From the NCBI RefSeq assembly GCF_011398355.1, contig NZ_AP021889.1, positions 1,798,001 to 1,862,000 of the forward strand: 64,000 nt of DNA, in the 5' to 3' direction. A model generated the notes under the pieces. It saw only the letters and a program-made list of their open reading frames with translations, did no database searches and was not told where the DNA came from. Every line of letters starts with the position of its first letter. The first letter of the stretch is position 1. This DNA comes from Thiosulfatimonas sediminis. Lineage in GTDB: Bacteria > Pseudomonadota > Gammaproteobacteria > Thiomicrospirales > Thiomicrospiraceae. The translations under genes and the position numbers were made by a program. This document shows positions 17,671 through 53,475 of the stretch, piece after piece.

Positions 17671-17884
17671 TTTTGATGATTTATCATCAGGCCTTTGCTT
17701 ACTGCGGTAAGCACCTTTAAACGCCGCCTAGCGTTGTCAAATAACTAGGCACCATTAGCTGACCTAACGGCTTTATTAGTCAGCAACCGGCTCGCCGGTC
17801 GAAGCCATTTTTTTATCAACCCTATGGGATATGCCAATCCCATAGGGAAACGGCGTATCTCATTTTTACTTTGGAGGTACGCCT
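17671..17884 (+). promoter_or_regulatory. Structured leader RNA 1 (double-pseudoknot type) before a micro-membrane gene
   Basis: Begins with hairpin GATGAT-TT-ATCATC, then CCTTTGC-hairpin-ACCTTTAA. A first pseudoknot has stem AACGC/GCGTT, with loop GCCTAG pairing to a later CTAGGC. A second has stem GCTGAC/GTCAGC, whose loop GGCTT pairs to AAGCC beyond hairpin ACCGG-CTCG-CCGGT. The platform holds GATATGCC (17,828-17,835), GGCGTATCTC (17,852-17,861) and GGAGGTACGCC (17,873-17,883); the middle strand can pair with either neighbour, so the ribosome site can be hidden. About 240 nt are repeated inverted at 26,397-26,637. Confidence 0.8.
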
Positions 17885-18070
17885 TTGAATCAAGAGCAAA
17901 AAACATTTTTGGCAAGAGCGGTAGAAATTACGGCCTTTGGTCAATTTGGCGCATTCGGTTATCCAGCCCTATTGAAGGGTGACTGGATCATCGTTGCAAT
18001 TACTTGCTTAGCTGTCCTGACGCTACTAGCAACAACGTATGCTATACTCTCAATCAATACAGGAGATTAA
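17885..18070 (+). CDS. Small membrane protein, paralogue of the 26,213-26,404 product
   Basis: A 61-residue protein with a TTG start 7 nt after GGAGG; its inverted-repeat paralogue has ATG at the same place. The N-terminus (ARAVEITAFGQFGAFGYPAL) matches the paralogue (ETAKLIAIAQFGYFGYKSL), and one hydrophobic helix (IIVAITCLAVLTLLATTYAIL) follows. Function unknown. It is translated from leader RNA 1 and followed directly by another micro-membrane gene. Confidence 0.8.
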   Translation: MNQEQKTFLARAVEITAFGQFGAFGYPALLKGDWIIVAITCLAVLTLLATTYAILSINTGD

Positions 18071-18072
18071 CC

Positions 18073-18192
18073 ATGACAGCGTATACACTTGTCCATGTAA
18101 TTGGCTTTTCCACTGTGTTTATAATCGCTTTTGGTGCTCTGGCTATTGCTTTGCACCATAAGCATAAACAAGATCAAAAGCATAAACGCTAA
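18073..18192 (+). CDS. Micro-membrane protein, 39 residues
   Basis: Starts 2 nt after the previous stop (GGAGATTAACCATG). One transmembrane helix (VIGFSTVFIIAFGALAIAL) is followed by a His/Lys tail (HHKHKQDQKHKR), so the C-terminus is probably cytoplasmic. Unrecognised; one of nine tiny single-pass proteins in this element. Confidence 0.7.
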   Translation: MTAYTLVHVIGFSTVFIIAFGALAIALHHKHKQDQKHKR

Positions 18193-18202
18193 CTTATACT
18201 AC

Positions 18203-18226
18203 GCCCAGCAAATTGCTGGGTTTTTC
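18203..18226 (+). terminator. Terminator after the micro-membrane operon
   Basis: CCCAGCA/TGCTGGG with a short loop and TTTTTC tail on the plus strand. Confidence 0.8.
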
Positions 18227-18241
18227 ATTTATACCGAAAAA

Positions 18242-18499
18242 TTACTTTTCTAAAATCCATAAACCATTTTTTTTGATTTCGTTGTACATGGCATCAGGGG
18301 CTAAATCCAATTCTCCTGGCCAGGTAACAACGCCATCAACAACCATGACTTGACGAAATTTTTTTGGGTCTTTCAATTTTTCAAAAACGCCATAGAAAAA
18401 TGAATTGGCAAACTCAACCGTTCCCTCTACCCCATCTTTAAATCGAACCAACAAAGCATTATCAGCTTTCACTCTTACTTCTGTAACATCCCATTCCAT
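18242..18499 (-). CDS. DUF2442 family protein
   Basis: An 85-residue protein with the DUF2442 layout: VTEVRVKADNALLVRFKDG, then a beta-rich middle and VVTWPGELDLAPDAMYNEI near the end. DUF2442 genes commonly sit directly after DUF4160 genes, as here (4 nt apart), and the pair has been proposed to act as a toxin-antitoxin-like module. The exact role is not established. Confidence 0.85.
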   Translation of the reverse strand: MEWDVTEVRVKADNALLVRFKDGVEGTVEFANSFFYGVFEKLKDPKKFRQVMVVDGVVTWPGELDLAPDAMYNEIKKNGLWILEK

Positions 18500-18502
18500 A
18501 AC

Positions 18503-18763
18503 TTACTCCAAAGGTGCAATAGGTTTTGGTGCTTGATGATTTGAACAAAGCTCCCAATCTTCCATTAATTCAGTTTGATGCAATTCTACCCAGTCTAAAA
18601 CTAGGTTGGCCGCTCTACGAGGCAATGAGCCTTTAATAATTTCCATTTTCTGAAAATCAACAACAGCTTCATGACCACTGTATTTAACATGAATATGAGG
18701 TGGTGCATGATCGCCATAGAACATCTGAATAATAATTCCGTAGAAAGTGCTTATTGTTGGCAT
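18503..18763 (-). CDS. DUF4160 family protein
   Basis: An 86-residue protein: MPTISTFYGIIIQMFYGDHAPPHIHVKYSG is the family signature, with the conserved His-Pro-His segment. I start it at MPTIST (18,763), because upstream codons lie in the resolvase 3' end. Paired with the DUF2442 gene. The resolvase upstream ends 13 nt away, so all three may share a transcript. Confidence 0.85.
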   Translation of the reverse strand: MPTISTFYGIIIQMFYGDHAPPHIHVKYSGHEAVVDFQKMEIIKGSLPRRAANLVLDWVELHQTELMEDWELCSNHQAPKPIAPLE

Positions 18764-18776
18764 CTGAAAACCTTTA

Positions 18777-19328
18777 TTACTGTAAATACCTAAATAGTGT
18801 TGCTCGCGAAACCCCAAACTGCTCCGCAACCTCTTCAGCAGTTTGTGCTCGATCTGGATTATCCATAATGGCTTTGGCCATAGCAATTTGCTTTGATGTC
18901 ATTTTAGGCTTACGACCACCTTTACGCCCTCTCGATCGCGCCGCTGCCAACCCTGCTTTTGTGCGCTCTGAAATAATATTACGCTCAAACTCAGCCAGGG
19001 CACCAAAAACATGAAACACTAGCTTGCCGGTTGATGTTGTTGTATCGATACCATCAGTAAGCGATACAAACTGAACCCCTCGACCTTCCAAATCTGCCAC
19101 AATCGATATGAGATCCTTCAGCGACCGGCTTAGCCGGTCAAGCTTCCAAACAACCAATTGATCGCCAGGGCGCAACGCTTTTAAAACTGCCACAAGCTCC
19201 GGACGATCTGATTTTGAACCTGAACCAGTTTCTTCATAGATTTGCTCACAGCCATGCGCGTTTAATGCATCAATCTGCAAACCTGTATCCTGGCTTGATG
19301 TGCTTACGCGCGCGTAGCCGATCTTCAA
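18777..19328 (-). CDS. Serine recombinase / resolvase-invertase
   Basis: A 183-residue small serine recombinase of the Tn3 resolvase-Hin/Pin group. MKIGYARVSTSSQD carries the nucleophilic Ser near residue 10, LDRLSRS and the GLAAARSRGRKGGRKP hinge follow, and a C-terminal helix-turn-helix (TAEEVAEQFGVSRATLFRYL) binds DNA. The length is complete. No transposase accompanies it. It may resolve element multimers or invert DNA; inverted 240-nt repeats at 17.65 and 26.64 kb bracket this region. Confidence 0.93.
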   Translation of the reverse strand: MKIGYARVSTSSQDTGLQIDALNAHGCEQIYEETGSGSKSDRPELVAVLKALRPGDQLVVWKLDRLSRSLKDLISIVADLEGRGVQFVSLTDGIDTTTSTGKLVFHVFGALAEFERNIISERTKAGLAAARSRGRKGGRKPKMTSKQIAMAKAIMDNPDRAQTAEEVAEQFGVSRATLFRYLQ

Positions 19329-19436
19329 TTAATCACCCCTCTAGCACCCAAATCCATGTTCATAGAACATTTGAGTATCAAAATAAAAAAACAACCGTTT
19401 TTGGCACTTTGATTTTGACACATATTTTGAAACAAA

Positions 19437-19469
19437 AAAAGCCCTGATTACCAATCATAATCAAGGCTT
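19437..19469 (-). terminator. Hairpin between resolvase upstream region and accessory operon
   Basis: AAAAAAGCCCTGATT/AATCAAGGCTT imperfect stem; on the reverse strand it ends in a T run, so it terminates leftward transcription before the resolvase gene. Confidence 0.7.
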
Positions 19470-19567
19470 CTTGGAATGTTTCAAAAACATACGTTTTTGA
19501 AACATCACACCCAGGCTCACTACCACCGTTTTATCAAAACCAGCTTGTGACATCCCTACGAAACAAA

Positions 19568-19588
19568 AAAACCGCGACAAGCGCGGTT
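19568..19588 (-). terminator. Terminator of the leader-2 operon
   Basis: AACCGCG/CGCGGTT with a 5-nt loop, followed on the reverse strand by TTTTTTTG. Similar CCGCG hairpins end operons at 25.2 and 58.7 kb. Confidence 0.85.
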
Positions 19589-19608
19589 CGTTGAAAAAAA
19601 CGAAATCG

Positions 19609-19752
19609 CTAAAAGATAGCGGTATCGGCGATTTTATAGGCCAGCAAAATCTTCTCAAGTTCTGACAGCGGCAAAGTCATAACAACCTCACCATTTTTGT
19701 AAAAGACAACACTCTCATCTTCGACAAGATAAGAATCATAATTCTGACTCAT
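19609..19752 (-). CDS. Small acidic protein, 47 residues
   Basis: Begins MSQNYDSYLVEDESVVFYKNG and ends KILLAYKIADTAIF. Its ATG overlaps the preceding stop as ATGA, so it is translationally coupled. No membrane segment. Unrecognised; a terminator follows 20 nt later, which supports it as the last gene of a real operon. Confidence 0.65.
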   Translation of the reverse strand: MSQNYDSYLVEDESVVFYKNGEVVMTLPLSELEKILLAYKIADTAIF

Positions 19753-20258
19753 GCAGCTACCCCTCTAGCACCAACATTGAACTCAACACGATAATCGGTT
19801 GAATTACCGCATTTACGCAACTCTTCAATATGAGTGACGTTGTGAGCTATTCGATTGGCGACAAACACATCCTCAATTGACTTAAACAAATCTGACTCAT
19901 TAACTGGAAACCAAAGATCAATCAGCTCCATGCAGTCAATCTCGGTCGCAAATTGCATTTCCCTTGTTAAGTGCGCGCACAAAACGCCATTAACTTCCTG
20001 AACAATGATATTAATCGAAGCCCTGCCATCTACTTCAGGACTTGAGTTAACATCTTGCCAATGCGTAACCATTGCCGATTGACTACCTGACTCTAAAGAA
20101 ACGCTTGAACCCGGCTCTTTTTGTAAAGAACTAAGTTTTTTTGAACAAGATTCAGAATCAAACCCGCAATCAGAAAGCACACCCTCAACTTCTGTTAAAG
20201 AAAAATAAAGAGCATTTGAACGCTCACCCATAGGATGAGAAATAAATAAAAGAAACAT
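19749..20258 (-). CDS. Hypothetical 169-residue protein controlled by leader RNA 2
   Basis: The frame stays open through the leader, but the ATG at 20,258 (MFLLFISHPMGERSNALYF) is the start placed right after the conserved leader platform. The middle is Ser/Glu-rich; the second half has IIVQEVNGVLCAHLTREMQF and FVANRIAHNVTHIEELRKCG. No clear signal peptide, and no family recognised. The gene is the first of a two-gene operon. Confidence 0.65.
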   Translation of the reverse strand: MFLLFISHPMGERSNALYFSLTEVEGVLSDCGFDSESCSKKLSSLQKEPGSSVSLESGSQSAMVTHWQDVNSSPEVDGRASINIIVQEVNGVLCAHLTREMQFATEIDCMELIDLWFPVNESDLFKSIEDVFVANRIAHNVTHIEELRKCGNSTDYRVEFNVGARGVAA

Positions 20259-20475
20259 AATTGTATATCCAAATAAGAGATACACCGCCACCCTCCCGGG
20301 CATTGGTGTACCCCGAAGGTTAAAATTAAATCCGCCTGGTAAACCAGGTTGCAGCCAACGGATCCGATGGGGCTGCTTAAGGGCGCTAAGCGAACTTAGC
20401 AAGGGTTGCTGATCTAACGATCAAACAATTCTCTATACCGGCTCCTGGAACCGTCATAGAGAATTGTTTTTTGAT
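20259..20475 (-). promoter_or_regulatory. Structured leader RNA 2
   Basis: Reverse strand: long hairpin AATTCTCTATGACGGTTCC/GGAGCCGGTATAGAGAATT, hairpin GATCGTTAGATC, CCCTTGC-hairpin-GCCCTTAAG, stem GCAGCC/GGCTGC whose loop GGATCCG pairs to CGGATTT beyond hairpin CCTGG-TTTA-CCAGG, then CCTTCGGGG...GGGAGG with loop GGTACACC opposite GGTGTATC. The platform lies directly before the ATG at 20,258. Close kin of leaders at 48.1, 49.6, 50.8 and 52.0 kb. Confidence 0.8.
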
Positions 20476-20565
20476 CCATTAATTTTTATGGACCAACCTG
20501 CCGGTAGGTCTAAAAAATTAAAATGAAAGTTAACCGGCGCAAAAGCACCGGTCGTAGTTAAAACC

Positions 20566-21231
20566 CTAACGCAAAAGGTCAATATCGCTTTTGTCAAAGT
20601 TATGGTGGATAAGATTATCCTTCAAAACTGAAAAGTCCTGCTGCAACAACTCTGAAATGAATTCAGGATATTCAAACACCTCACATTCATAATCAAAGAA
20701 TTCAGAAATCGCTTGTCGTTTAAAGTCTGGATCAAAATATTGAATAACTTTCAAAGCTAATTCATTCAGATAATCCGGATCAAATTCACAAATTATCTCT
20801 TCCGGATAAAGCAAGTGATAGTCGGTAGCCACTCGATCAAACACAACCATAAGAATAGCTTCTTTAATCAAGTTATCTGCACCAGAATCGGCAATATCAC
20901 CAGGTGAACTAAAATCCAGTCGGCCTTCATCGTAACCTGTATAGTAGGTATCAATGCCGTTGACAAAAACATCCATTTTAGCGAATGGGTTTTCATCAAC
21001 TGTAAGGCCTATTGATTCAGACTTTTTATCAAATCCTTCAACAATTTTTGCTAAGGAATCTGACATTAATCGATTCATGAAAGCATTCGCATTCATGCCT
21101 TCAACCGTCATATCAGAAAGAATTGTTTCGACAAGATCATCAGAATGGGTTTCATTCCAATCACGGTATGAATCTTCAAGGCATGGAACAACAAGGTGCG
21201 CAACGCCGAAAACATCGTTAAAAAATGACAT
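20566..21231 (-). CDS. Hypothetical 221-residue acidic protein controlled by leader RNA 3
   Basis: Starts MSFFNDVFGVAHLVVPCLED right after the leader. Strongly acidic throughout (ICEFDPDYLNEL, FFDYECEVFEYPEF) with no membrane segment or recognisable motif. Strong negative charge is seen in DNA-mimic and anti-defence proteins, but there is no direct evidence for that role. Length and codon use look normal for the element. Confidence 0.7.
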   Translation of the reverse strand: MSFFNDVFGVAHLVVPCLEDSYRDWNETHSDDLVETILSDMTVEGMNANAFMNRLMSDSLAKIVEGFDKKSESIGLTVDENPFAKMDVFVNGIDTYYTGYDEGRLDFSSPGDIADSGADNLIKEAILMVVFDRVATDYHLLYPEEIICEFDPDYLNELALKVIQYFDPDFKRQAISEFFDYECEVFEYPEFISELLQQDFSVLKDNLIHHNFDKSDIDLLR

Positions 21232-21400
21232 GGTATATCTCCTAAATAAAAAAGGGATATACCAGCCCGACAGGGAGTATATCCCTGTGGGGTAAAAAAT
21301 GGTTTTACCGGTTAACCGGTTGCTGACAAAGTAAAACCGAAGAGGTCAGCTAAAGGCGCTTACCGAAGTAAGCAAAGGTTCACTCAATGAGTGATAAACA
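21232..21400 (-). promoter_or_regulatory. Structured leader RNA 3
   Basis: Reverse strand: hairpin TCACTC-ATTG-AGTGA, CCTTTGC-hairpin-GCCTTTAG, stem GCTGAC/GTCAGC (21,345-21,350 and 21,322-21,327). Its loop GGTTTTAC (21,331-21,338) pairs perfectly with GTAAAACC (21,301-21,308) beyond hairpin ACCGG-TTAA-CCGGT: a pseudoknot. The platform has ACAGGGA/TCCCTGT and the strand GGTATATC, which can pair with GATATACC at the ribosome site. Confidence 0.82.
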
Positions 21401-21422
21401 CTGAAATCTTATCAAAAATGAA

Positions 21423-21836
21423 TCAATGCGACGCATTTAGATTGGCTTGAGTGAACTTTTTTTGCACGAACTCCAAATTTAAAATGCGTAACAAGACAAT
21501 CCAACCAACGATAAATGCTACATCTTCAGTGGCTTTTAGCATCCCAAAAAACGCTAGATCGAGGGCAGATAAAACCAGTGCGCCCGAAGAAAAGTAGAGT
21601 GCTGCCCTTAACGCCCAAGGCTTGGTCATTACAAAACCAACAAACCAAATCCCCCAAGCAATACCAAAAATAACCGAACCAAATTGCACAAAAATATTCG
21701 ACGAAATAAGCGAATCATTAAGTGCTATTGCACGATCAATCAGACCTGGATCAGATTGAAACAGATAGATTGAATTAATGATCACTAAGAATAATAAAAA
21801 CCAATGGCCATACTTAAAAACATTTAATTTTTTCAT
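21423..21836 (-). CDS. Four-helix membrane protein, 137 residues
   Basis: Starts MKKLNVFKYGHWFLLFLV with GGGG upstream. Four hydrophobic segments: WFLLFLVIINSIYLF, VQFGSVIFGIAWGIWFVGFV, ALYFSSGALVLSALDLAFFG and DVAFIVGWIVLLRIL. No family recognised. It is the third gene of a unit with a lipoprotein and another membrane protein under a copy of the palindromic box, so it may act in mating-pair contact or entry exclusion; that is inference. Confidence 0.7.
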   Translation of the reverse strand: MKKLNVFKYGHWFLLFLVIINSIYLFQSDPGLIDRAIALNDSLISSNIFVQFGSVIFGIAWGIWFVGFVMTKPWALRAALYFSSGALVLSALDLAFFGMLKATEDVAFIVGWIVLLRILNLEFVQKKFTQANLNASH

Positions 21837-21859
21837 TCTGATAAACCCCAAAACTCAGA

Positions 21860-22234
21860 TTAATATTTGTAACGCTCTCTTTTTGAGCAATGGATTAAAG
21901 CCGATATGAAAAATGAAACAACCCCTACACCACCAACAATAATGCTTGATGCAAAGACAATGCTGTTACCGCCATAGACATAAAGCAGAATCGGGTTTGA
22001 GACCAGGATCAATGCCAAATAAAAGAACACTCTCTTCCACCCACACCACAAACGGCGCGAACTGGCCACAAGAATAAATCCAACAACCGCCAAGCCAAAA
22101 AAGACAGCATAAAAAACGTCCGGATCCCGCTCCATTCCATAAGGCGTGCTTGTATTAAGCACATAGCCAGCGGACAAAGCCAATAATACTGCGGCAGCTA
22201 AACTAAAAATTATTCGTGTAATAAAAGTAAACAT
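21860..22234 (-). CDS. Membrane protein, about 124 residues
   Basis: Starts MFTFITRIIFSLAAAVLLAL (ATG at 22,234; a GTG precedes it). Four hydrophobic segments: FSLAAAVLLALSAGYVL, FYAVFFGLAVVGFILVA, VFFYLALILVSNPILLYVY and IVFASSIIVGGVGVVSFFISA. Unrecognised. Middle gene of the palindrome-controlled lipoprotein operon. Confidence 0.7.
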   Translation of the reverse strand: MFTFITRIIFSLAAAVLLALSAGYVLNTSTPYGMERDPDVFYAVFFGLAVVGFILVASSRRLWCGWKRVFFYLALILVSNPILLYVYGGNSIVFASSIIVGGVGVVSFFISALIHCSKRERYKY

Positions 22235-22244
22235 CACAATCCCT

Positions 22245-22658
22245 TTAACTAAAGCGGTACAACCGCTTTTTCTTCTTGATCAATGTTCGACAACTTGATT
22301 GGTCGGCTGTTTTTTGAAGTCGATAAGAATCGAACTCTTTGATCAACTGGTAGCAATGACCTGAATCCAAATCTGAATAAAATCGGTAAATCATGACGCC
22401 CTGCTTTTTTGGATAAAATCGAACAGTAAAATGATGGCTTCCCTTTGGCAGTAGCAAGTTATCATGCAACGCAATTTGGCCATTGACTGAAACAACATGA
22501 AGATCATTCGACTGAGTTCCATCTAAACCACTGATTACGCTGTACCGATGTTCTTTTTCGACTGGCTCAGAATCAATGGGCTTAGATGGATTAACCGAGC
22601 AACCGGATAAAACAATCATTGAAACCAACAGCAAAACCCTGGACATACAAAATTTCAT
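22245..22658 (-). CDS. Small lipoprotein, 137 residues
   Basis: A signal peptide (MKFCMSRVLLLVSMIVLSGC) ends in a lipobox with Cys at 20. The mature part has GLDGTQSNDLHVVSVNGQIAL, GSHHFTVRFYPKKQG and a basic C-terminus (CRTLIKKKKRLYRF). The pattern of 'value of constant, then H/FTVR' recalls envelope stress or TssJ-like lipoproteins but no family can be named. First gene of an operon under palindrome copy 2. Confidence 0.75.
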   Translation of the reverse strand: MKFCMSRVLLLVSMIVLSGCSVNPSKPIDSEPVEKEHRYSVISGLDGTQSNDLHVVSVNGQIALHDNLLLPKGSHHFTVRFYPKKQGVMIYRFYSDLDSGHCYQLIKEFDSYRLQKTADQSSCRTLIKKKKRLYRFS

Positions 22659-22721
22659 TCAACGCCTCCTAACTAAACTTAAGAGTCATGCTATCAAGCG
22701 AATGAAATTTTGTATGTGATT

Positions 22722-22746
22722 CCAAGTGCGGAAATTCTGTACTTGG
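22722..22746 (-). promoter_or_regulatory. Palindromic activator box (copy 2)
   Basis: CCAAGTGCG-N7-TGTACTTGG with one compensated and one lost pair. Leftward TAGCAT (22,693-22,688) starts 41 nt from its centre before the lipoprotein gene. A rightward -10 at the same distance is weak. Confidence 0.72.
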
Positions 22747-22842
22747 AATTTTGGGGCGTTTAGCAGTGATTTTTTGAGATCCATTGCTAGAATGTCAAAT
22801 TCGACTAGAAATGTAACCGAATAAAAAATCAGAATTCAAAAA

Positions 22843-23496
22843 ATGTTTAAATTTAGAAACAAGAAAATCGACCACAAAAAGAAGCAATTTAGGAACTTAG
22901 TCAATCTTGGCTTACAGATATACAAAGAGAACCCTAATGCTCTTCAAGCCTACATCAATGGACTTGCTCGCAAGGTGCAATATCAACGTTTCGTAGACTA
23001 TGCCATGTCAGATATGCACGCTGCACCTCACAATAGACAAGAGGATTTTTTTGGCAGGTTTTTCAATAAAAATGCAGAATATGAATTATTGGAACGATTA
23101 AGAAGCGACCCACCCGAACAAATGATAGATCTCTCTACTGATACTGTCATTGCTGAACCCTGGCATCATGGAAGATTCATTAGCTGCATGGAAACGATTG
23201 GAGAGCCTGAAAACCCTTGGAAAGAGCACAAAACTAATCACTTAGGGTTCACATTCTTACCATCAAAAATTACCTGGATCGGCGGAGGGAATCATTCCAT
23301 AACGACGGGGATTTTAAAAAACACTGGTACATTCCAAACCACCGAAGTTTATGATCTGAGCAAGATTTTCGATAGTATTTATTCCGATGGAATTTTCTTT
23401 TGGAACAAAGACGCCAAAGAACGAATTTCACAAGTTATATTTTTGGAGTTTGCTGCAATCTATGAAATTGAACGGCAAGTAAGGAGAGTCCAATGA
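22843..23496 (+). CDS. Hypothetical 217-residue protein
   Basis: Not confidently recognised; parts (AEPWHHGRFISCMETIG, GGGNHSITTGIL) recall a family of small stand-alone bacterial proteins of unknown function often met on mobile elements. Basic N-terminus (MFKFRNKKIDHKKKQFRN), no membrane segment. Translationally coupled to the next gene by an ATGA overlap. Rightward, divergent from the lipoprotein operon; the pair is lower in GC than its neighbours and looks like an inserted accessory cargo. Confidence 0.7.
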   Translation: MFKFRNKKIDHKKKQFRNLVNLGLQIYKENPNALQAYINGLARKVQYQRFVDYAMSDMHAAPHNRQEDFFGRFFNKNAEYELLERLRSDPPEQMIDLSTDTVIAEPWHHGRFISCMETIGEPENPWKEHKTNHLGFTFLPSKITWIGGGNHSITTGILKNTGTFQTTEVYDLSKIFDSIYSDGIFFWNKDAKERISQVIFLEFAAIYEIERQVRRVQ

Positions 23497-23708
23497 GTTT
23501 CTACAGAGATCTACTAACAGAACAATATGGCAGTGAAATCGGTTCTATCGTCGGTTGCGGTTTAGATCGATTGGAGCGAAAAGTGTCATCAATTGAGATC
23601 CAAGAAGCCGTCCAATTTTATGAAGCGAACAAAATAACGATTAATCACGAAGCTATAAATCATCGACGAGAAGCAGTGGCAAATTTTGTTCGGGAGCAAT
23701 TTTATTGA
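23493..23708 (+). CDS. Hypothetical 71-residue protein coupled to the 22,843 gene
   Basis: MSFYRDLLTEQYGSEIGSIV, then a Glu/Arg-rich helical sequence. The start overlaps the previous stop by 4 nt and a terminator follows 18 nt after its stop. The size and coupling fit a two-gene defence or toxin-antitoxin-like cassette, but no signature motif proves it. Confidence 0.65.
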   Translation: MSFYRDLLTEQYGSEIGSIVGCGLDRLERKVSSIEIQEAVQFYEANKITINHEAINHRREAVANFVREQFY

Positions 23709-23725
23709 TTTTGGCCAAAATAAAA

Positions 23726-23748
23726 AACCCGATCATTTGATCGGGTTA
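23726..23748 (+). terminator. Terminator between convergent cassettes
   Basis: AACCCGATCA/TGATCGGGTT, loop TT; T-poor on the plus strand but A-rich upstream, so it works best for the leftward genes. Confidence 0.65.
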
Positions 23749-23757
23749 AAGATATGT

Positions 23758-23859
23758 TTATCCTCTCTTATGCTTTCGTAGCTCTTGGATGAAACCAACA
23801 GCATAGAGAGCTAGAAAAAACAAACCAACGCCTAAAAGCGCCCAAGTGAAAGTAGACAT
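23758..23859 (-). CDS. Micro-membrane protein, 33 residues
   Basis: Strong AGGAGG 7 nt before ATG. MSTFTWALLGVGLFFLALYA gives one transmembrane helix, with a short tail ELRKHKRG. It is 12 nt downstream of the leader-4 gene, so it is cotranscribed. Function unknown. Confidence 0.7.
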   Translation of the reverse strand: MSTFTWALLGVGLFFLALYAVGFIQELRKHKRG

Positions 23860-23871
23860 ATACTAACCTCC

Positions 23872-24069
23872 TTATTTATTTTCCAACTCCGATGAAAAGG
23901 AAAATAAGCCTAATACATAGAATAGCAATCCAAGCACCATAGCCTGTAAAGCTTCTTCATGCGTTGTTGCAGGCGAACCTAAAAAGATAGCTGCCAAACT
24001 ACCACCGGCAAGAACAAGTCCAAGCTTCCTCAGGTCTTCCCTAAGCGCTTTAAAGTTAATATTAACCAT
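23872..24069 (-). CDS. Small two-helix membrane protein controlled by leader RNA 4
   Basis: A 65-residue product: MVNINFKALREDLRKLGLVL, hydrophobic LVLAGGSLAAIFLGS, then ALQAMVLGLLFYVLGLFSF. Unrecognised. AAGGAG precedes the ATG. First gene of a two-gene micro-membrane operon. Confidence 0.72.
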   Translation of the reverse strand: MVNINFKALREDLRKLGLVLAGGSLAAIFLGSPATTHEEALQAMVLGLLFYVLGLFSFSSELENK

Positions 24070-24240
24070 GCAAACTCCTTGAAATAAAAATCCAACGAGA
24101 ACACAGCACCCAATGGGAAATGTATTCCCATTGGGGTTAAGGGCATCCTAGTTTTACAACGCGGATAAGCGTTTAAAGATACTGAGCACACTCAGCAAAG
24201 GCTTGATAATAAATCATCGAAACAACCTTTATGATAAACC
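24070..24240 (-). promoter_or_regulatory. Structured leader RNA 4 (divergent member)
   Basis: Reverse strand: hairpin GATGATTTATTATC, CCTTTGC, then hairpin GCTGAG-TGTG-CTCAGT, which keeps the fold of the usual GCTTAC/GTAAGC with different bases; TCTTTAAA; stem AACGC/GCGTT with loop TATCC pairing to GGATG. Then hairpin CCCAATGGGAA/TTCCCATTGGG, whose loop strand AATACA can pair with TGTGTT. Independent base changes at paired positions make this copy especially informative. Confidence 0.75.
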
Positions 24241-25676: not shown

Positions 25677-25783
25677 GGTATATCTCCAAAATAAAAAAAG
25701 GGATATACCACCCCACCAGGACGATATATCCCTGATGGGTAAAATGGCTAAATTTGGTTAGCCGTGGGTAACTTTGGAGATTT
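25677..25783 (-). promoter_or_regulatory. Leader 5: translational platform without the upstream motif
   Basis: Reverse strand: hairpin GGCTA/TAGCC, then CCCATCAGG/CCTGGTGGG; loop GGGATATA can pair with TATATCCC, and GGTATATC can instead pair with GATATACC overlapping GGAG before the ATG. The CCYUUG core hairpin is absent. Confidence 0.7.
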
Positions 25784-26404: not shown

Positions 26405-26637
26405 AGGCGTACCTCCAAAGTAAATTTGAGATACACCGGTTCCCTATGGGATTGGCATATCCCATAGGGTTGATAAAAAATGGCTTCGACCGGCGAACCG
26501 GTTGCTGACAAATAAAGCCGTTAGGTCAGCTAATGGTGCCTGGTTATTTGACAACGCTAGGCGGCGTTTAAAGGTGCTTACCGCAGTAAGCAAAGGCCTG
26601 ATGATAAATCATCAAAATGCCATTTAATTTTAGCAAA
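26405..26637 (-). promoter_or_regulatory. Structured leader RNA 6, inverted copy of leader 1
   Basis: About 240 nt nearly identical to leader 1 but on the other strand. The loop GCCTAG faces CCAGGC instead of CTAGGC, which leaves one mismatch; the second pseudoknot and the GGCGTAT-like/GGAGGTACGCC platform are retained (here GGTGTATCTC). It starts directly after the relE stop, so it lies inside a possible read-through unit. Confidence 0.8.
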
Positions 26638-47048: not shown

Positions 47049-47116
47049 GATTTCCTCTATCCCTGCTTTTTTACACGCTTACATCATCGCAAAAACAAAA
47101 AAAAGACTACTCAAAA

Positions 47117-47141: not shown

Positions 47142-47150
47142 TTTACAGAC

Positions 47151-47779: not shown

Positions 47780-48068
47780 GATCAAGCCCTCCGATAAACT
47801 CACAGACTTCAGAATAAGACTCAGATTCAAATAAGAAATGAACGGTCACGCCTTCTTCATCAGTTGAAAAAACGGAAAATCGCTCTTTCTCTGGATCCTC
47901 TCTATCATCCGGATTTTTGTGATCAACAAAAAGCTTAACTTTCAGCAATTCATTAACGGCAGATGCACACGTATCATTGCCATAAGAATCATCTTTAAAA
48001 CCATCTGGCAAAGGGTATTCCATACCCGATACACAATGACTGAAACTTGTCACATAACGACTAGACAT
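47769..48068 (-). CDS. Hypothetical 99-residue acidic protein controlled by leader RNA 7
   Basis: MSSRYVTSFSHCVSGMEYPLP, then DDREDPEKERFSVFSTDEEG. Acidic, no membrane segment, no family recognised. Confidence 0.65.
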   Translation of the reverse strand: MSSRYVTSFSHCVSGMEYPLPDGFKDDSYGNDTCASAVNELLKVKLFVDHKNPDDREDPEKERFSVFSTDEEGVTVHFLFESESYSEVCEFIGGLDHAV

Positions 48069-48290
48069 AACATATCTCCAAATAAGAGATACACCGCTGC
48101 CCTTCAGGGCATTGGTGTACCCCGAAGGTTAAAATTGAATCACTGCAAAATGCAGTTGTGGCCAAACGATCCGTGGCGGCCACTAAGGGCGCTTACCGAA
48201 GTAAGCAAGGGTTGCTGATCTAACGATCAAACAATTCTCTATACCGGCTCCCGGAACCGTCATACAGAATGGTTTGAAAAGGAGGGCAAC
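48069..48290 (-). promoter_or_regulatory. Structured leader RNA 7
   Basis: Reverse strand: long hairpin (CAAACCATTCT.../...AGAATTGTTTG), GATCGTTAGATC, CCCTTGC-hairpin-GCCCTTAG, stem GTGGCC/GGCCAC whose loop GGATC pairs to GATTC beyond hairpin CTGCA-TTT-TGCAG; E hairpin CCTTCGGG/CCCTGAAGG with loop GGTACACC opposite GGTGTATC; then TATCTC can instead pair with GAGATA covering GGAG. Confidence 0.82.
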
Positions 48291-48329
48291 CGGTGAACCG
48301 GTCGCCACTTACTCAATTATCTCGCTTGC

Positions 48330-48398
48330 TTAGAAAGCAGCAGGCGAATACAATAAAAAAGCAAGGAAGATGAAAATTGCAGTAAGGGGCATTTTCAT
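48330..48398 (-). CDS. Micro-membrane peptide, 22 residues
   Basis: MKMPLTAIFIFLAFLLYSPAAF after a perfect GGAGG, 7 nt spacing. Essentially one helix. It may be a real small peptide or a translated leader; unrecognised. Confidence 0.5.
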   Translation of the reverse strand: MKMPLTAIFIFLAFLLYSPAAF

Positions 48399-48511
48399 AC
48401 TTACCTCCAAAATAGACGGCATCGAAAGGTGCCGTTTTCCTTTTCTGGCGATCGCCAGACCGGTTGAACGCCCCTACTCGCTCAAAACCATAATCAACCA
48501 AACATATCTTG

Positions 48512-49537
48512 CTAAAGACTTGCTTGTTCAGCCAAATCATCAGCGACTTTATCGATTGACTGAGACTGTGCTTCAACGACCATGCGATTTAATAAGCGAA
48601 CAGACTTCATTGCCTCCTGAGAAGCTTTGAAAATCGCCTTATAATCGTCTTTTAGAACTTTCACCCATGATTTGATGTATTTGACGTGCATATCGTCAAC
48701 TCCACCGCTCTCTAATCCAAGCTCCGCAGAAGCCATTGCTGCACCTAGCTGCGCAACAAGCTCTTCAAAAGCATATTGCGTTGAACCGAAAGCATCGAAC
48801 TTCACAATACCATCCCGGTTGCAACGAGAAGCCGCACCCGTCCAGTGAATCGTTTCATGCAAACGAGTCTGGTAATAAGCCAGCTCAGAATGAAACTTTT
48901 CCTTTTTGGGCAAAGTAATGGAATCGCTAAGCGGTGAATAAAAAGCACGGACACCACCATGAGACAATTCCACCGGATCTTTGGCATGAAGAGATAGAGC
49001 GGATAAATACTGCTCTGCCACTTCAATAGGCGAAAACTCTTCACCAACACCTAACGGCTCAACAACACTACCCTTTGGATCGTAATAATGTTCTTCAAGC
49101 CCCTCGATTTGCTCGACGTTAAAGTAGGGCGCATAACGATACGACCAAATAACATCTTCACCGTCCTCCATTGCTTGCTGAATTCGTTCTCTGTCAGGTG
49201 AAAACAGCTTGCCTTTGGAATCTTTAAGAAACGGTCTAAGCCAAAAAACCAAAGTTGACTTTGATCCTTTGATTACTTTTCCACCAAGCTCAGTAGCTTG
49301 CTTGAAGGTCAACCAACGGTTTGCTTCAAAACCTTGCTCTGCCATGCTCATTGAACACAATAATTGCGAAATTCCAATCAATCGCTGACCGGTTTTTGCA
49401 TTGGTCGCAATAGAACGCATTCGATCCCAAGGAACCGAAAAACTTCCATCAACAAGCCCTTTCTCCAAAGATTCAACGATTTGTTGAGTTACTTTTTTGA
49501 ATTGAGCGTCTTTATCTTTTACCTTTTTAAAAGCCAT
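48512..49537 (-). CDS. ardC: ArdC-like antirestriction / ssDNA-binding metalloprotease-fold protein
   Basis: A 341-residue protein with an N-terminal ArdC ssDNA-binding domain (FSVPWDRMRSIATNAKTGQRLIG and WLTFKQATELGGKVIKGSKSTLVFW, about 25-100) and a C-terminal zincin-like domain with HETIHWTGA (near residue 228). ArdC proteins protect incoming DNA from host restriction in plasmids. Controlled by leader RNA 8, consistent with early expression in a recipient. Confidence 0.9.
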   Translation of the reverse strand: MAFKKVKDKDAQFKKVTQQIVESLEKGLVDGSFSVPWDRMRSIATNAKTGQRLIGISQLLCSMSMAEQGFEANRWLTFKQATELGGKVIKGSKSTLVFWLRPFLKDSKGKLFSPDRERIQQAMEDGEDVIWSYRYAPYFNVEQIEGLEEHYYDPKGSVVEPLGVGEEFSPIEVAEQYLSALSLHAKDPVELSHGGVRAFYSPLSDSITLPKKEKFHSELAYYQTRLHETIHWTGAASRCNRDGIVKFDAFGSTQYAFEELVAQLGAAMASAELGLESGGVDDMHVKYIKSWVKVLKDDYKAIFKASQEAMKSVRLLNRMVVEAQSQSIDKVADDLAEQASL

Positions 49538-49755
49538 AATTGTATCTCCGAATACAAGAGATACACCGCTGCCCTCCGGGGCATTGGTGTACCCCGAAGG
49601 TTAAAAATGGATCACTGCAAAACGCAGTTGTGGCCAAACGATCCGTGGCGGCCACTAAGGGCGCTAAGCGAACTTAGCAAGGGTTGCTGATCAAACGATC
49701 AAACAATTCTCTATACCGGCTCATGGAACCGTCATACAGAATGGTTTGATAAGAA
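49538..49755 (-). promoter_or_regulatory. Structured leader RNA 8
   Basis: Same fold as leader 7 with changes: loop GGATC pairs perfectly with GATCC; E hairpin CCTTCGGGG/CCCCGGAGG keeps pairing despite two differences; the D hairpin is CTGCG-TTT-TGCAG. The platform strand TATCTC faces GAGATA before the ardC-like ATG. Confidence 0.82.
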
Positions 49756-49791
49756 AGAAGGGCAACCGGTAAACCGGTCGCCACTTACTTT

Positions 49792-50031
49792 TTATTTAAA
49801 GGATCGCATTCTCAAAAGAAAATATGTATCCCCCGAATCAAAAATAGCTTCCGCCTCACGCTGGGATAGAATTTTTGATGCAATCAAGAGTTCCAAATTT
49901 TGACCTCGACAGTCAAAAATATAATCGGAAGAACCCCGCTTGCTACCACCCCACCGAATTCCATCAATTTGGAATTTGTTAATACGAGTATTTATCGTTC
50001 TCGATGAAAGATCTGTCATTATGCGAACCAT
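49792..50031 (-). CDS. Hypothetical 79-residue protein
   Basis: MVRIMTDLSSRTINTRINKF, then GSSDYIFDCRGQNLELLIAS and REAEAIFDSGDTYFLL. Basic N-terminal half, possibly nucleic-acid binding. Its GGAGG lies across the previous stop, so it is coupled to the leader-9 gene. Unrecognised. Confidence 0.65.
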   Translation of the reverse strand: MVRIMTDLSSRTINTRINKFQIDGIRWGGSKRGSSDYIFDCRGQNLELLIASKILSQREAEAIFDSGDTYFLLRMRSFK

Positions 50032-50034
50032 AAC

Positions 50035-50718
50035 TCAACCCTCCACCTTAGATTGACAAAGACACTCACCAGACATAAACGCAATCCAAGCAGCTGCCTT
50101 TGGCAACGATTCAAACTGCGCGTGAAGCTTGCCATCCGCTTCAACACCGACACTCATTTCACCACCAAGATATTCAACAATTTTGAATTTTGGCAAGCTA
50201 AAGTTCGGATGTGAATAAGCCACTTCACCAGTAGCCACATCAACAATACGAACGACCTGAGAATCAAGCAAAGAGCCACCGCCATATTCACCATCTGGCA
50301 CAAGCAATGGTATCTTCATCAAACCGGTTGAACGACCAACTCGACCAATAACATCAAACTCTTCAAGCCATGCTCGACCTGAATCAGTGTCACCATAAAA
50401 CACACGAATAACGCGCTCATCTTTACGGCACTTTTCCAAGGCCTTTTTAACTTTAGTCTTGGTGTCTGGATCATACCAAGTTTGCTTAAAGCCACCTTTC
50501 GCACGAAGAACGTCCAGGGCGTTTTCATATTGAGCATACTGGCACAGTTTTCCAATTTCGGACTCTTTAGGGAGTTCCAAATTGAGTAAACTCGACATAG
50601 CTTTTAATTTCTTAAAAAGCACATCAAAGCCCAAGCATGAATAACCGCCACCGGCTGAAATAACAAAAAGACGTTGCGATTGGTTAAGGGTAATTGAATC
50701 ATCAATAGACGAAATCAT
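50035..50718 (-). CDS. Hypothetical 227-residue protein controlled by leader RNA 9
   Basis: Start placed at MISSIDDSITLNQSQRLFVI (50,718), directly after the leader platform; the frame is open through the leader but begins with leader-encoded residues. It contains FVISAGGGYSCLGFDVL (Gly-rich loop, about 18-34), VFYGDTDSGRAWLEEFDVIGRVGRS and a conserved C-terminal segment with CLCQSKVEG. The mix suggests a small regulatory or DNA-processing protein. Not recognised. Confidence 0.7.
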   Translation of the reverse strand: MISSIDDSITLNQSQRLFVISAGGGYSCLGFDVLFKKLKAMSSLLNLELPKESEIGKLCQYAQYENALDVLRAKGGFKQTWYDPDTKTKVKKALEKCRKDERVIRVFYGDTDSGRAWLEEFDVIGRVGRSTGLMKIPLLVPDGEYGGGSLLDSQVVRIVDVATGEVAYSHPNFSLPKFKIVEYLGGEMSVGVEADGKLHAQFESLPKAAAWIAFMSGECLCQSKVEG

Positions 50719-50935
50719 AGATAAATCTCCAAATAAGAGATACACCGCTGCCCTTCGGGGCATTGGTGTACCCCGAAGGTTAAAAATAGATCACTGCAAA
50801 TGCAGTTGTGGCCAAACGATCCGTGGCGGCCACTAAGGGCACTTACCGAAGTAAGCAAGGGTTGCTGATCAAACGATCAAACAATTCTCTATACCGGCTC
50901 CTGGAACCGTCATACAGAATGGTTTGATAAAACAA
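50719..50935 (-). promoter_or_regulatory. Structured leader RNA 9
   Basis: As leader 8 with loop GGATC opposite GATCT (a G-U pair replaces G-C), E hairpin CCTTCGGGG/CCCCGAAGG perfect, D hairpin CTGCA-TT-TGCAG. Platform GGTGTATCTC and GGAGAT before the ATG. Confidence 0.82.
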
Positions 50936-50961
50936 CCAGCGCTTTATGCGCTGGTCGAAAA

Positions 50962-51201
50962 TTAGCCATGCGTCACAACCCACCCCTGCGGATCGTAGCC
51001 AACAATTTCTAATGCCTCTGCTTCAAGCCAGGCTTGAAGCGAAACACCATCGTTAAGCCTTATTTCTCGCTGAAGAGGAATAACGCTGGATTCTTGCTGA
51101 TAACTAACTTCAACAAGATCACCATTAAATACGGCTTCAACAAGATAACCAAACAACTCAAACATCACGACAAAACCGCGATCAACAGCTTGAACAAACA
51201 T
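50962..51201 (-). CDS. Hypothetical 79-residue protein controlled by leader 10
   Basis: MFVQAVDRGFVVMFELFGYL, with QQESSVIPLQREIRLNDGVSL and GYDPQGWVVTHG at the end. Small, mixed alpha/beta. Unrecognised. Confidence 0.65.
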   Translation of the reverse strand: MFVQAVDRGFVVMFELFGYLVEAVFNGDLVEVSYQQESSVIPLQREIRLNDGVSLQAWLEAEALEIVGYDPQGWVVTHG

Positions 51202-51283
51202 AAATATCTCCTAATAAAAAATTAGGGATATTTCCACCCACAAGGGATAGAAAAATCCCTCGTGGGTAATAAAGATAAAATGG
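51202..51283 (-). promoter_or_regulatory. Leader 10: short translational platform
   Basis: Reverse strand: CCCACGAGGGAT/ATCCCTTGTGGG hairpin, then GGAAATATCC facing GGAGATATTT. No CCYUUG core or pseudoknot. The platform covariation (AAATATC/GATATTT) is unique to this copy. Confidence 0.65.
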
Positions 51284-51394
51284 TTATAAATCGAAAATAG
51301 CGATCCAAACCAAAGAAAAAACACCGATTAAACCTAGCGTAGCCGCACTGCGAACAACCCAACTAATAATCAATTCAAAAAATAAGCCGGTCAT
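51284..51394 (-). CDS. Micro-membrane protein, 36 residues
   Basis: MTGLFFELIISWVVRSAATL, then GLIGVFSLVWIAIFDL: two short hydrophobic segments. AGGTGAG precedes the ATG. It overlaps no other gene and lies between two leader-controlled genes. Confidence 0.6.
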   Translation of the reverse strand: MTGLFFELIISWVVRSAATLGLIGVFSLVWIAIFDL

Positions 51395-51405
51395 AAACCA
51401 CTCAC

Positions 51406-51870
51406 CTAAGCAGAAATTAATCTTGCGCCAATGGATTTTTTCACCTCAGCAACCGTTTTAGGCTCCCAGTGAAAATCCAACTCAATAATCGGATGCTCAC
51501 GCAACTCCGAAATCGGAATATACCCAAATTCAGAATTTTGCGGATCACCAAGGTTAGAAAAACCGAATGCCTGACATTGATCCTTAGCAATAGTTAATTG
51601 TTCTTCGCCAGGGTTTTCAACATCCTTTTCAGTAATATACCAGTCACACCCACCTCCAAAATAATGAAGGTAAATGATCGCTTGATCACCTAAGCCATCT
51701 TGACCATAAATCCCAGGCATAGAATCAACAATATCATTCAATTCACGCACCTTATCTTTGAAAAATTGACCTTCATCACGACCAATCACTTCCAGTAAAA
51801 AAGAAGCCTGGCCTTTAGGCAAGAAAGAACAAAAAAGGTTAGAATTTGTAAAAAAATCAGTAAAAGACAT
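51406..51870 (-). CDS. DUF2958 family protein controlled by leader 11
   Basis: A 154-residue protein: residues 35-130 contain HYFGGGCDWYITEKDVENPG, then FGFSNLGDPQNSEFGYIPISEL and IIELDFHWEPKTVAEV, the usual DUF2958 order. DUF2958 genes are common in ICE and plasmid establishment blocks; function unknown. Confidence 0.85.
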   Translation of the reverse strand: MSFTDFFTNSNLFCSFLPKGQASFLLEVIGRDEGQFFKDKVRELNDIVDSMPGIYGQDGLGDQAIIYLHYFGGGCDWYITEKDVENPGEEQLTIAKDQCQAFGFSNLGDPQNSEFGYIPISELREHPIIELDFHWEPKTVAEVKKSIGARLISA

Positions 51871-52145
51871 GGAACATCTCCTTAAAACAAAAAAGGGATA
51901 TTCCTAACCCTGCGGGAGGAATATCCCGCAGGGAAAAATAAAAACTGTTACAACTTAGTTAACTCAGCCGGGGCATTGGTGTACCCCGAAGGTTAAAATT
52001 GGATCACTGCAAATGCAGTTGTGGCCAAACGATCCGTGGCGGCCACTAAGGGCGCTTACCGAAGTAAGCAAGGGTTGCTGATCAAACGATCAAACAATTC
52101 TCTATACCGGCTCATGGAACCGTCATAAAGAATGGTTTGAAACAA
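51871..52145 (-). promoter_or_regulatory. Structured leader RNA 11 (composite)
   Basis: The upstream half is a full core with CCCTTGC-hairpin-GCCCTTAG, stem GTGGCC/GGCCAC, loop GGATC with GATCC. Its first E hairpin is broken after CGGGG/CCCCG, and a second, unrelated E hairpin CCCTGCGGGA/TCCCGCAGGG with loop TATTCC and strand GGAATATCC opposite GGAGATGTTCC follows. The copy therefore looks like a core joined to a new platform. Confidence 0.8.
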
Positions 52146-52469
52146 GATGAGTGAAAGCAAGCTGCTTTTTTCATAACGAAAAACGTCACGAAAAAAGCAG
52201 CTCATACAGTAATAAGCCTAATCCCAAAATTTCTAGCTCACTATCGAATAGACAACATGGCACTTCACAGCACTAAGGGGCGCTGTCTGCAACCGGCGAC
52301 GCGCAAACCGGTGCTGATAGATGCCGATAAACCCGATAAACAGGCTCATAAGCATCGACCAGCACCGGAAAAAAGTATGAAATGATGTTATGGGATGCCA
52401 GCTTGGTGAAAGGGCAAGCTGGCGACAGAGAAGGATTCCGACCTTCTGAAAAACCAAGAGAAAACATTT
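52146..52469. other. Gene-poor stretch after the orphan core
   Basis: Contains a strong leftward hairpin GCCAGCTTG/CAAGCTGGC (52,401-52,428) and only a weak possible 40-residue leftward frame (starts ATGCTTATGAGCCTG, 52,349). I see no convincing gene. Confidence 0.5.
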
Positions 52470-52580
52470 GGTATGGTTTAAGGATCGACCGGCAAGCCGG
52501 TTATCTGCAAAGTGATCCGCAGCGCAGATTAAGGGTACTTACTGAAGTAAGCAAAGGTTCTGGTTAGACTGAACCAGCAC
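52470..52580 (-). promoter_or_regulatory. Orphan core motif of the leader family
   Basis: Reverse strand: hairpin CTGGTTCAGTCTAACCAG, CCTTTGC-hairpin (GCTTACTTCAGTAAGT), ACCCTTAAT, stem ATCTGC/GCAGAT with loop GGATC pairing to GATCC beyond ACCGG-CTTG-CCGGT. No matching platform or clear start codon follows; it may control a small gene between 52,150 and 52,470 or be a relic. Confidence 0.7.
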
Positions 52581-52763
52581 AGGGAAATCGTTGTTTGATG
52601 CAAATTTTACACGAACTAACCCCACATCAAAACAGGAAAAAACATAAAGCGAACGATAAAAAAACAGATAAAGACACATTTCAATACAGAAAAATATTGA
52701 AATATCCCCTTCAAATCAAAGAAAAATAGAGAAAAGCGGCGGTAAGAATTACCGCCACAAAGA

Positions 52764-53288
52764 TCAAAGCTTCCATTCAAAATCTGAAATCTGCTCATAA
52801 CCCACATTCGCAAGCCAGGCTTCGCGTGTTTTCAACTCAGGATCTTGTGGATCAAGAGTAACAGTTGGGTTTTGTTTTTTGAAATAGTCTGTTTTAGAAA
52901 GCTTCTCAGCTTCAAAAACGAGATCACCATTGACTTTCATCATATCAATGGTCAAAAGACGACCTTTGATAGAAGCATACGTTTTATTGTTATGCTCAAA
53001 AGCTTCTGGGAAAATATCCCCAACTTTAGCAGTAACCAAAACTTTTTGCTGATCAGAAATTGATTCTTGCCATTGCTGAAGCAAGCTTAACGCATCACTT
53101 CCGCGAACAATACAATCAACATAAGTATATTCCACATCATCAGAAGATCCTCGCAAAAAAGCCAAGGTAACAGACGTGAAAGGATTACCTTTTTTTGGCT
53201 TTACTTCACGCATACGATTAACGTAAGCAAGACCAGTTAGGTGAAGATTGAAGAAATTAGCTTGGTTGTTATTAGCTGTAGTAGTCAT
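52764..53288 (-). CDS. DUF3577 / STY4534-family ICE replication protein
   Basis: About 174 residues from MTTTANNNQANFFNLHLTGL (ATG at 53,288; an upstream in-frame ATG lies inside the leader). NRMREVKPKKGNPFTSVTLAFLRGSSDDVEYTYVDC is the family hallmark, and the rest follows the OB-like pattern of STY4534. Members are named replication proteins of ICEs. Leader RNA 12 controls it. Confidence 0.9.
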   Translation of the reverse strand: MTTTANNNQANFFNLHLTGLAYVNRMREVKPKKGNPFTSVTLAFLRGSSDDVEYTYVDCIVRGSDALSLLQQWQESISDQQKVLVTAKVGDIFPEAFEHNNKTYASIKGRLLTIDMMKVNGDLVFEAEKLSKTDYFKKQNPTVTLDPQDPELKTREAWLANVGYEQISDFEWKL

Positions 53289-53475
53289 AAGAATATCTCC
53301 TAAGATATAAAAAAATAAAAAAGGGATATATCTCGACCCCAAGGGATAGAAATATATCCCAAGGGGCACTGACTTTTAAAAAGATCCATCGACATCGGAG
53401 CGTCGATTGCAGCAAATGGATCGATGGGCTGCTAAGGGTGCTTACCTAAGTAAGCAAGGGATCGCTCAAAAAGAA
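53289..53475 (-). promoter_or_regulatory. Structured leader RNA 12
   Basis: Reverse strand: CCCTTGC-hairpin (GCTTACTTAGGTAAGC)-ACCCTTAG, stem GCAGC/GCTGC with loop GATCC pairing perfectly to GGATC beyond hairpin ATCGAC/GTCGAT, then platform CCCC-GGGATA/TATCCC-GGGG with loop GATATATT facing a strand that can also pair with the GGAGATAT ribosome site. Confidence 0.8.

Follow-up and report, generated by a model that had tools for sequence, protein, structure and literature searches.

A stretch of 64,000 nucleotides (nt) of the Thiosulfatimonas sediminis genome (contig NZ_AP021889.1, positions 1,798,001 to 1,862,000), referred to here as the window, carries an integrative and conjugative element (ICE) of the PFGI-1/SPI-7 class in which a family of structured leader RNAs directly precedes a set of genes. 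Judged from their sequences, these leaders are probably cis-acting RNA switches that hold accessory or establishment genes of PFGI-1/SPI-7-class ICEs translationally off by default. There are twelve of them, ten full leaders and two that consist only of a translational module, the platform, and there is one orphan copy; all lie in the ICE region (Table 1). The window is part of a single-contig 2.72-Mb genome. The class markers TraC (PFL_4706), TraD and PilL2 score above their NCBIfam cut-offs, and further ICE genes encode a topA-type topoisomerase, PFL_4669, a single-stranded DNA-binding protein (SSB) and a DUF3577 protein.

All leader sites listed in a preliminary description of this DNA were found in the window sequence. 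Both of its platform-only copies exist, with start codons at 25676 and 51201 rather than at 25,677 and 51,202. The covariance model that it proposed was built for the 32-nt core from nine window members; it gave 11 window matches at 40.8 to 51.5 bits, among them the orphan core, with the next best at 11.6, and found relatives in other genomes. Across the whole genome, with 150 of 569 first-look candidates scored, the same 11 core matches were obtained, all in the ICE region. The layout proposed for the full members is shared overall, except that the P2 region differs in the leaders of 17885 and 26404 and in that of 24069.

Table 1. Leaders, platforms and associated genes in the window (window positions; genes are named by the position of the start codon; A, B and C are the platform helices)
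Feature	Coordinates	Strand	Details
Full leader of TTG-start gene 17885	17675..17884	+	H0 17675-17688, core 17689-17720, two pseudoknot modules
17885 platform	A 17820-17829/17838-17847, B 17826-17835/17852-17861, C 17852-17861/17874-17883	+	
Full leader of 20258	20259..20470	-	Type 1, long 5' hairpin; core 20377-20408
20258 platform	A 20319-20311/20300-20292, B 20314-20305/20286-20277, C 20285-20278/20270-20263	-	
Full leader of 21231	21232..21395	-	Core 21350-21381, pseudoknot GGTTTT/AAAACC
21231 platform	A 21292-21283/21275-21266, B 21286-21276/21263-21253, C 21264-21252/21243-21231	-	
Short leader of 24069	24070..24220	-	Core 24173-24204, small pseudoknot, platform A 24135-24126/24118-24109
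Platform-only leader of 25676	25677..25740	-	Helix B then T7, also scores terminator-like
Full leader of 26404	26405..26613	-	Core 26568-26599; inverted near-copy of 17885 leader
Full leader of 48068	48069..48280	-	Type 1; core 48183-48214
48068 platform	A 48128-48120/48109-48101, C 48095-48085/48079-48069	-	
ArdC-type antirestriction gene	48512..49537	-	Sits behind leader
Full leader of ArdC gene (49537)	49538..49752	-	Type 1; core 49655-49686
Full leader of 50718	50719..50930	-	Type 1; core 50833-50864
Platform-only leader of 51201	51202..51270	-	
Chimeric leader of 51870	51871..52140	-	Type-1 upstream domain, core 52046-52077, then type-2 platform
51870 platform	A 51933-51924/51917-51908, B 51927-51917/51905-51895, C 51904-51892/51883-51871	-	
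Orphan	52230..52610	-	TGTGTAAAAT box, core 52529-52560, P2-pseudoknot-P3, then ~250 nt further conserved sequence
DUF3577 gene	52764..53288	-	174 aa, Pfam 118.8 bits
Full leader of DUF3577 gene (53288)	53289..53480	-	Core 53432-53463, pseudoknot GATCC/GGATC
53288 platform	A 53366-53357/53346-53337, B 53360-53345/53338-53323	-	
ICE SSB gene	55803..56351	-	No leader noted; not scored for platform

The platform, a predicted three-way switch and the most widespread module of the leaders, is present at twelve window starts. It is made up of hairpin A, a decoy Shine-Dalgarno (SD) sequence in or around the loop of A, an anti-SD segment, and the real SD/start region. Helix B places the anti-SD segment on the decoy and leaves the SD free, and helix C places it on the real SD/start region; because both use the anti-SD segment, B and C are mutually exclusive. 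At 51870 the anti-SD segment GGAATATCCC fits either the decoy GGGATATTCC or the SD region AAGGAGATGTTCC, and at 17885 the segment GGCGTATCTC fits either GGGATATGCC or GAGGTACGCC. Helices A and B share nothing but the GGG end of the decoy, which also closes A, so that they either compete or might in part form together, as a pseudoknot. The "translation platform" of the preliminary description is present, in a more elaborate form than described.

SD/start regions pair better with the anti-SD segment of their own leader than with those of other leaders. Permutation tests were run per group because base composition differs between groups, and the own anti-SD:SD pairing beat the cross pairs in both (0 of 20000 permutations for 22 window-group leaders and 0 of 20000 for 17 class leaders). 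For decoy:anti-SD pairing the counts were 0 of 20000 in the window group and 48 of 20000 in the class group. These tests covered 39 of 40 leaders (L081radC was left out) and treat leaders as exchangeable; kin share both sides, so they are conservative within groups. The SD is complementary to a leader segment, the two covary, and the segment has an alternative partner, as in a translational switch. An action in RNA accounts most readily for this fit of the SDs to their own anti-SD segments, and the cis-acting RNA role favoured in the preliminary description is well supported.

Helix B followed by a U-run might instead be a terminator, with the upstream domain deciding whether transcription ends there. 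Several window copies do have B followed by T6 to T7, and two B sites score terminator-like (53340-53323 and 25733-25699). Attenuation of this kind seems highly improbable, as the U-run is missing from L061, L063 and similar GC-rich relatives and the complementarity of the helix-C strand to the SD would be left unexplained.

Minimum free energy (MFE) folds, read by eye, predicted A together with C for most of the 40 leaders. The energy needed to open the SD, which we chose as a measure because SD pairing probability was uninformative, had a median of 9.8 kcal/mol, compared to 4.2 kcal/mol with shuffled upstream sequence; 17 of the 40 leaders beat 30 of 30 shuffles, and 28 beat at least 27 of 30. 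The prediction of A+C as the ground state of most leaders, the existence of platform-only leaders and the wider spread of the platform compared with the window-type core would also suit a device that responds to no ligand, in which SD sequestration blocks translation of read-through transcripts in the integrated element until a different transcription start or co-transcriptional folding opens it. Such a device is unlikely to be the explanation, as by itself it needs neither B nor an upstream domain: B is kept by covariation, and 10 of the 12 window leaders have the upstream domain, which other elements carry too, with compensatory changes.

The distribution of platforms was surveyed with a single threshold, a sum of at least 45, which was set once the leaders had been seen and was made strict because a first low-threshold scan had given 12 to 25 hits per shuffled window. 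A platform precedes all 12 window leader genes and none of the 29 other window open reading frames scored. Four named elements were also surveyed (ICEHin1056, a Pseudomonas veronii plasmid, Shewanella baltica pSbal02 and a Stutzerimonas megaplasmid). Here a platform precedes 16 of 32 genes of the DUF3577 block, i.e., the genes following topoisomerase or pilus genes, and none of 36 others. In shuffled controls the count was 39 of 2180 (10/240, 7/580, 6/720, and 16/640). This census of the named elements took in 68 of the 80 coding sequences scored, a set that does not include transposase, resistance and certain further annotated genes. None of the remaining 12 qualified; the largest sum among them was the 44.5 of TraX, for which both B and C were below 12. 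The four scored genes directly after the topoisomerase of ICEHin1056, namely, DUF3577, DUF3560, radC and one hypothetical gene, all have a platform, and none of the 10 scored genes up to and including the topoisomerase does. Before DUF3577 genes a platform is found at 19 of the 21 loci of the class set, which includes several mutually identical ones, and in five of seven named records scored, two of these five being betaproteobacterial. The DUF3577 leaders L074 and L090 fail the descriptor and look platform-like by eye, L075 has no candidate start with an SD, and L088 scored 43.5. Gammaproteobacterial and betaproteobacterial elements alike, ICEHin1056 for example, have a decoy-SD platform upstream of genes of the DUF3577 block.

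The upstream domain consists, in transcript order, of hairpin H0, CCYUU, hairpin H1 (6 bp), CCYUUA, stem P2 and hairpin P3, and the P2 loop pairs with the strand just 3' of P3 to form a pseudoknot. The H1 stem GCTTAC/GTAAGC given in the preliminary description is present, and GCTAAG/CTTAGC and GCTGAG/CTCAGT occur as well. An alignment of 25 core matches (23 distinct), fitted to the model and drawn from the window, genomes G024, G003 and G301, and Methyloprofundus, has all 138 of 138 H1 cells paired (100%). Both sides changed in 28 cells, distributed over four of the six pairs. Four of five covariation measures beat all shuffles (0 of 500); the fifth, the number of further pair types, was unexceptional (271 of 500 shuffles). 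Sliding the partner by one to three columns left at most 42% of the cells paired.

The pseudoknot is likewise kept through sequence change, with the variants GGTTTT/AAAACC, GGATC/GATCC, GATCC/GGATC, GACTTCAA/TTGAAGTC and GGTTCC/GGAGCC all paired. In 25 leaders, none of 20000 permutations was as good as the own pairing, nor was any within the 13 window and G024 leaders (0 of 20000) or the 12 other leaders (0 of 20000); the segments were cut by hand, with near-identical window copies and several relatives left out. A class-wide covariance model was dropped because MAFFT alignments placed P2 out of register, and a descriptor was used together with the permutation tests instead. The P2-pseudoknot-P3 descriptor gave 11 window matches at 28 or above, compared to 0, 0, 1, 0, 0, 0, 0 and 1 in eight shuffled windows; its match at 20476+ was judged spurious, and it missed the 24069 leader.

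A compact pseudoknot, conserved unpaired CCYUU and CCYUUA strands, and an aptamer-plus-expression-platform layout are also what a small-molecule or ion riboswitch would present, the upstream domain then being an aptamer for a metabolite that signals the donor or recipient state. Such a ligand is quite unlikely given that no metabolic theme is seen: the putative target genes with a named family are DNA-handling genes of mobile elements, and most match no family. The pseudoknot sequence also varies freely, and a factor encoded by the element would better account for the presence of eleven core copies in it.

On conjugative plasmids, antirestriction and leading-region genes are preceded by hairpin-rich repeats, the Frpo/ssi single-strand promoters. 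A comparable DNA element, either a promoter or a transfer site folding in the incoming strand and driving leading-region genes, would account for the hairpin-rich repeats before antirestriction and other DNA-processing genes. It would also fit the lack of an excess of ordinary promoter-like matches in the window (8 compared to 11.3 in shuffles and 19 compared to 22.8), by which promoters are thus not established. The five type-1 leaders, the chimeric one included, have an extra long near-palindromic 5' hairpin, and the TANNNT box is absent from the 75 nt 5' of their cores; both points suit a DNA element too. We consider it very unlikely nonetheless. It is at the ribosome site that the anti-SD:SD and decoy:anti-SD pairs covary, a feature that sets the ICE leaders apart from Frpo/ssi, and the leader of 17885 in the window, like that at 1827717 in G024, is on the other strand than the rest. 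With this mixed orientation, not all leaders can act on one transferred strand unless the segment has been locally inverted.

In layout and genomic place, the leaders resemble the radC RNA motif (Rfam RF01754), which has a table row reading "Y, y, ?, Proteobacteria" in Weinberg et al. 2010 (PMC2864571). The preliminary description did not recognize the motif; there is indeed no RF01754 match, but the likeness had gone unremarked. At gathering thresholds, Rfam matched the whole window with one tRNA only (12334-12381). The curated 40 bits of RF01754 were not reached in the window, and no RF01754 match appeared even at E ≤ 5 in 48000-53600 and 17600-26800, two leader stretches where other Rfam matches at E ≤ 5 were taken for chance. 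RF01754 is present in one of 369 class genomes, G321, where its DUF3577 leader scores 131.7 bits and four copies lie within 45 kb, one before a RadC gene. A Stutzerimonas stretch has three copies, one of them before DUF3577 (101.7 bits), and a P. veronii stretch has two. Twenty loci, namely the Methyloprofundus locus L038 and all but two of the 21 class loci with DUF3577, matched no other Rfam family at gathering thresholds.

Nine radC RNAs share the order hairpin, CCC, P2, pseudoknot and P3, with pseudoknot pairing supported by permutation (3 of 50000); an earlier test on four radC sequences alone was not significant (1668 of 20000). With a CCC anchor the descriptor hit seven of the nine, and a platform follows in six of nine at a sum of at least 45 and in a seventh at 43.5. 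Like the window leaders, then, radC RNAs have a hairpin, a CCC-rich strand and a P2 whose loop pairs beyond P3; they occur in several copies per element, and they precede DNA-handling genes of mobile elements (DUF3577 in G321 and Stutzerimonas and a RadC gene in G321; DUF3577 and ArdC in the window). The window core differs in being CCYUU-H1-CCYUUA, and the 3' hairpin that the Rfam model has between the pseudoknot and the platform is absent from the window leaders by eye, a short pyrimidine-rich linker taking its place; the Rfam model, moreover, ends before the platform. The window leaders appear to be built and placed like radC RNA, and for want of an RF01754 match we do not file them as members. 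The radC layout is thereby extended to leaders missed by Rfam, and a testable function and mechanism are suggested for radC RNA, a family known since 2010 and poorly understood. A DUF3577 RNA motif, reportedly described by Weinberg and colleagues in 2017, would, to judge from its name, be sited upstream of DUF3577 genes.

The switch would work as follows. In the usual ground state, predicted to be A+C, the SD is paired and translation is off; freeing the decoy would let helix B form, releasing the SD and turning translation on. A trans-acting factor might read the upstream domain and set the choice between A and B, or might coat the U-rich linkers up to the SD. Ribosomal-protein autoregulatory leaders offer a precedent, with pseudoknot-based translational control by an operon product, but no ribosomal gene was seen behind the ICE leaders, which are on a mobile element. 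Among such leaders, PMC3014915 gives the S15 pseudoknot as an example, and the paper also describes the gene 32 leader of T4, T2 and RB69, with a pseudoknot upstream of the start, U/A-rich stretches to the ribosome site and, behind it, the gene of an ssDNA-binding protein. The DUF3577 gene similarly stands behind a pseudoknot leader with such stretches, its product being SSB-like only by a poor model, whereas the ICE leaders add the decoy-SD/anti-SD switch and serve about 12 genes.

Our tentative candidate for the factor is the SSB-like DUF3577 protein, possibly acting by analogy with T4 gp32; the ICE SSB is a rival candidate. In the majority of the elements studied, the DUF3577 gene is itself preceded by one of these leaders. 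Its product scores 117.1 bits against NCBIfam STY4534, below the cut-off of 160; papers on DUF3577 include PMC3334931. The predicted fold of the product is an SSB/PriB-like OB fold, and the best PDB matches of both models, which are of low confidence, are SSBs. Free DUF3577 protein might repress, and single-stranded DNA (ssDNA) from transfer or replication might titrate it away. A full ssDNA-sensing translational regulon, in which DUF3577 protein binds the leaders and represses its own gene along with antirestriction, repair, methylation and other genes until ssDNA opens the set, with radC RNA as one branch, is a speculative and rather unlikely extension. If the switch does answer to ssDNA or an ICE protein, it would provide a post-transcriptional layer timing establishment genes during transfer; our literature search, judged by titles and abstract openings, found no description of such leaders or of such a layer.

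Several observations weigh against a regulated default-off switch, and others against DUF3577 protein as its factor. The MFE folds of 20258, 50718 and L067 favor B and that of L081 favors neither state (by eye), 12 of 40 leaders fail to beat 27 of 30 shuffles in SD opening cost, and an SD pairing probability of at least 0.5 is found in 39 of 40 leaders and in 182 of 200 shuffles, giving no separation. The leaders were already known when the platform thresholds, the gene lists and the hand-cut segments were chosen. Two window leaders are platform-only, and no route by which the upstream domain would shift the A/B balance is visible in the sequence. As for DUF3577 protein, the models are poor (pLDDT 54 and 51), and a second fold was no better. 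The VIA list mixes SSB and PriB with other OB-fold proteins (toxin B subunits and tRNA synthetases) and so supports an OB fold more than an SSB. A DUF3577 profile had no match to ICE SSBs, and the sequence had only a chance-level match in the PDB (E 0.24). Finally, no DUF3577 match was obtained in G003, although an orphan domain is present there.

Outside the window, the core was found in 4 of 191 relatives, these being T. sediminis itself, G024, G003 and G085, the last spurious. G024 has nine core copies in two clusters with window-like spacing, together with DUF3577 and topoisomerase. G003 has one diverged orphan domain with a complete pseudoknot (L034, 4445-4476), possibly an ICE remnant; a recombinase-like coding sequence was seen by eye further downstream. 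Among the 369 class genomes, 19 of which have DUF3577 (T. sediminis included), the core occurs in three: T. sediminis, G301, where it precedes DUF3577, and G152. The G152 match (24.3 bits) and the G085 match are missing the second CCYUUA, or P2, and look spurious. In a collection of genome contigs, the core DNA pattern gave 21 stretches, of which only L038, a Methyloprofundus metagenome-assembled genome with three copies, was accepted, on score and flanking structure; L044 (30.7 bits) and L041 (28.6 bits) were rejected by eye, being without P2 and the pseudoknot. Viral contigs gave one core-pattern stretch, judged to be chance, and 49 DUF3577 pattern stretches, none a relative; a blastn search of a plasmid collection with the leader gave no match.

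The orphan is probably, on sequence grounds, a separate noncoding RNA or a transfer site. Its domain has a conserved TTNGTGTAAAAT box, and stems are predicted in the ~250 nt conserved in G024 and partly in Methyloprofundus. Relatives lie around 10689-10720 of L033 in G024 and at 2255-2690 of L038, and in three of three elements examined the orphan sits between DUF3577 and the next leader gene.

The upstream domain of the 51870 leader is very similar to the type-1 domain of the 48068 leader. In the 51870 leader this domain is followed by a platform of type 2, which suggests that leaders are modular and that recombination between them may occur. The leader regions at 17651-17893 (+) and ~26396-26637 (-) are 95% identical over 243 nt, are inverted, and flank an 8.5-kb segment, which recombination between them could flip.

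The preliminary description placed most copies inside polycistronic operons, which is doubtful: terminator-like hairpins, at 50957, 49782 and 48306, lie directly 5' of three leaders, and terminator-like sites are enriched in the window (16 compared to 7.1 in shuffles). Several recurring direct-repeat families precede start codons in the window. Other genes in or near the ICE encode a TraT-like protein (16493-17218, +), a serine resolvase (18777-19328, -), a DUF6710 protein (22843-23496, +) and a ParE-type toxin (26639-26950, -). The transfer region also has two copies of a 69-nt repeat, 80% identical, with the hairpin AACCAAGTGCA/TGCACTTGGTT (39230-39298 and 47090-47158).

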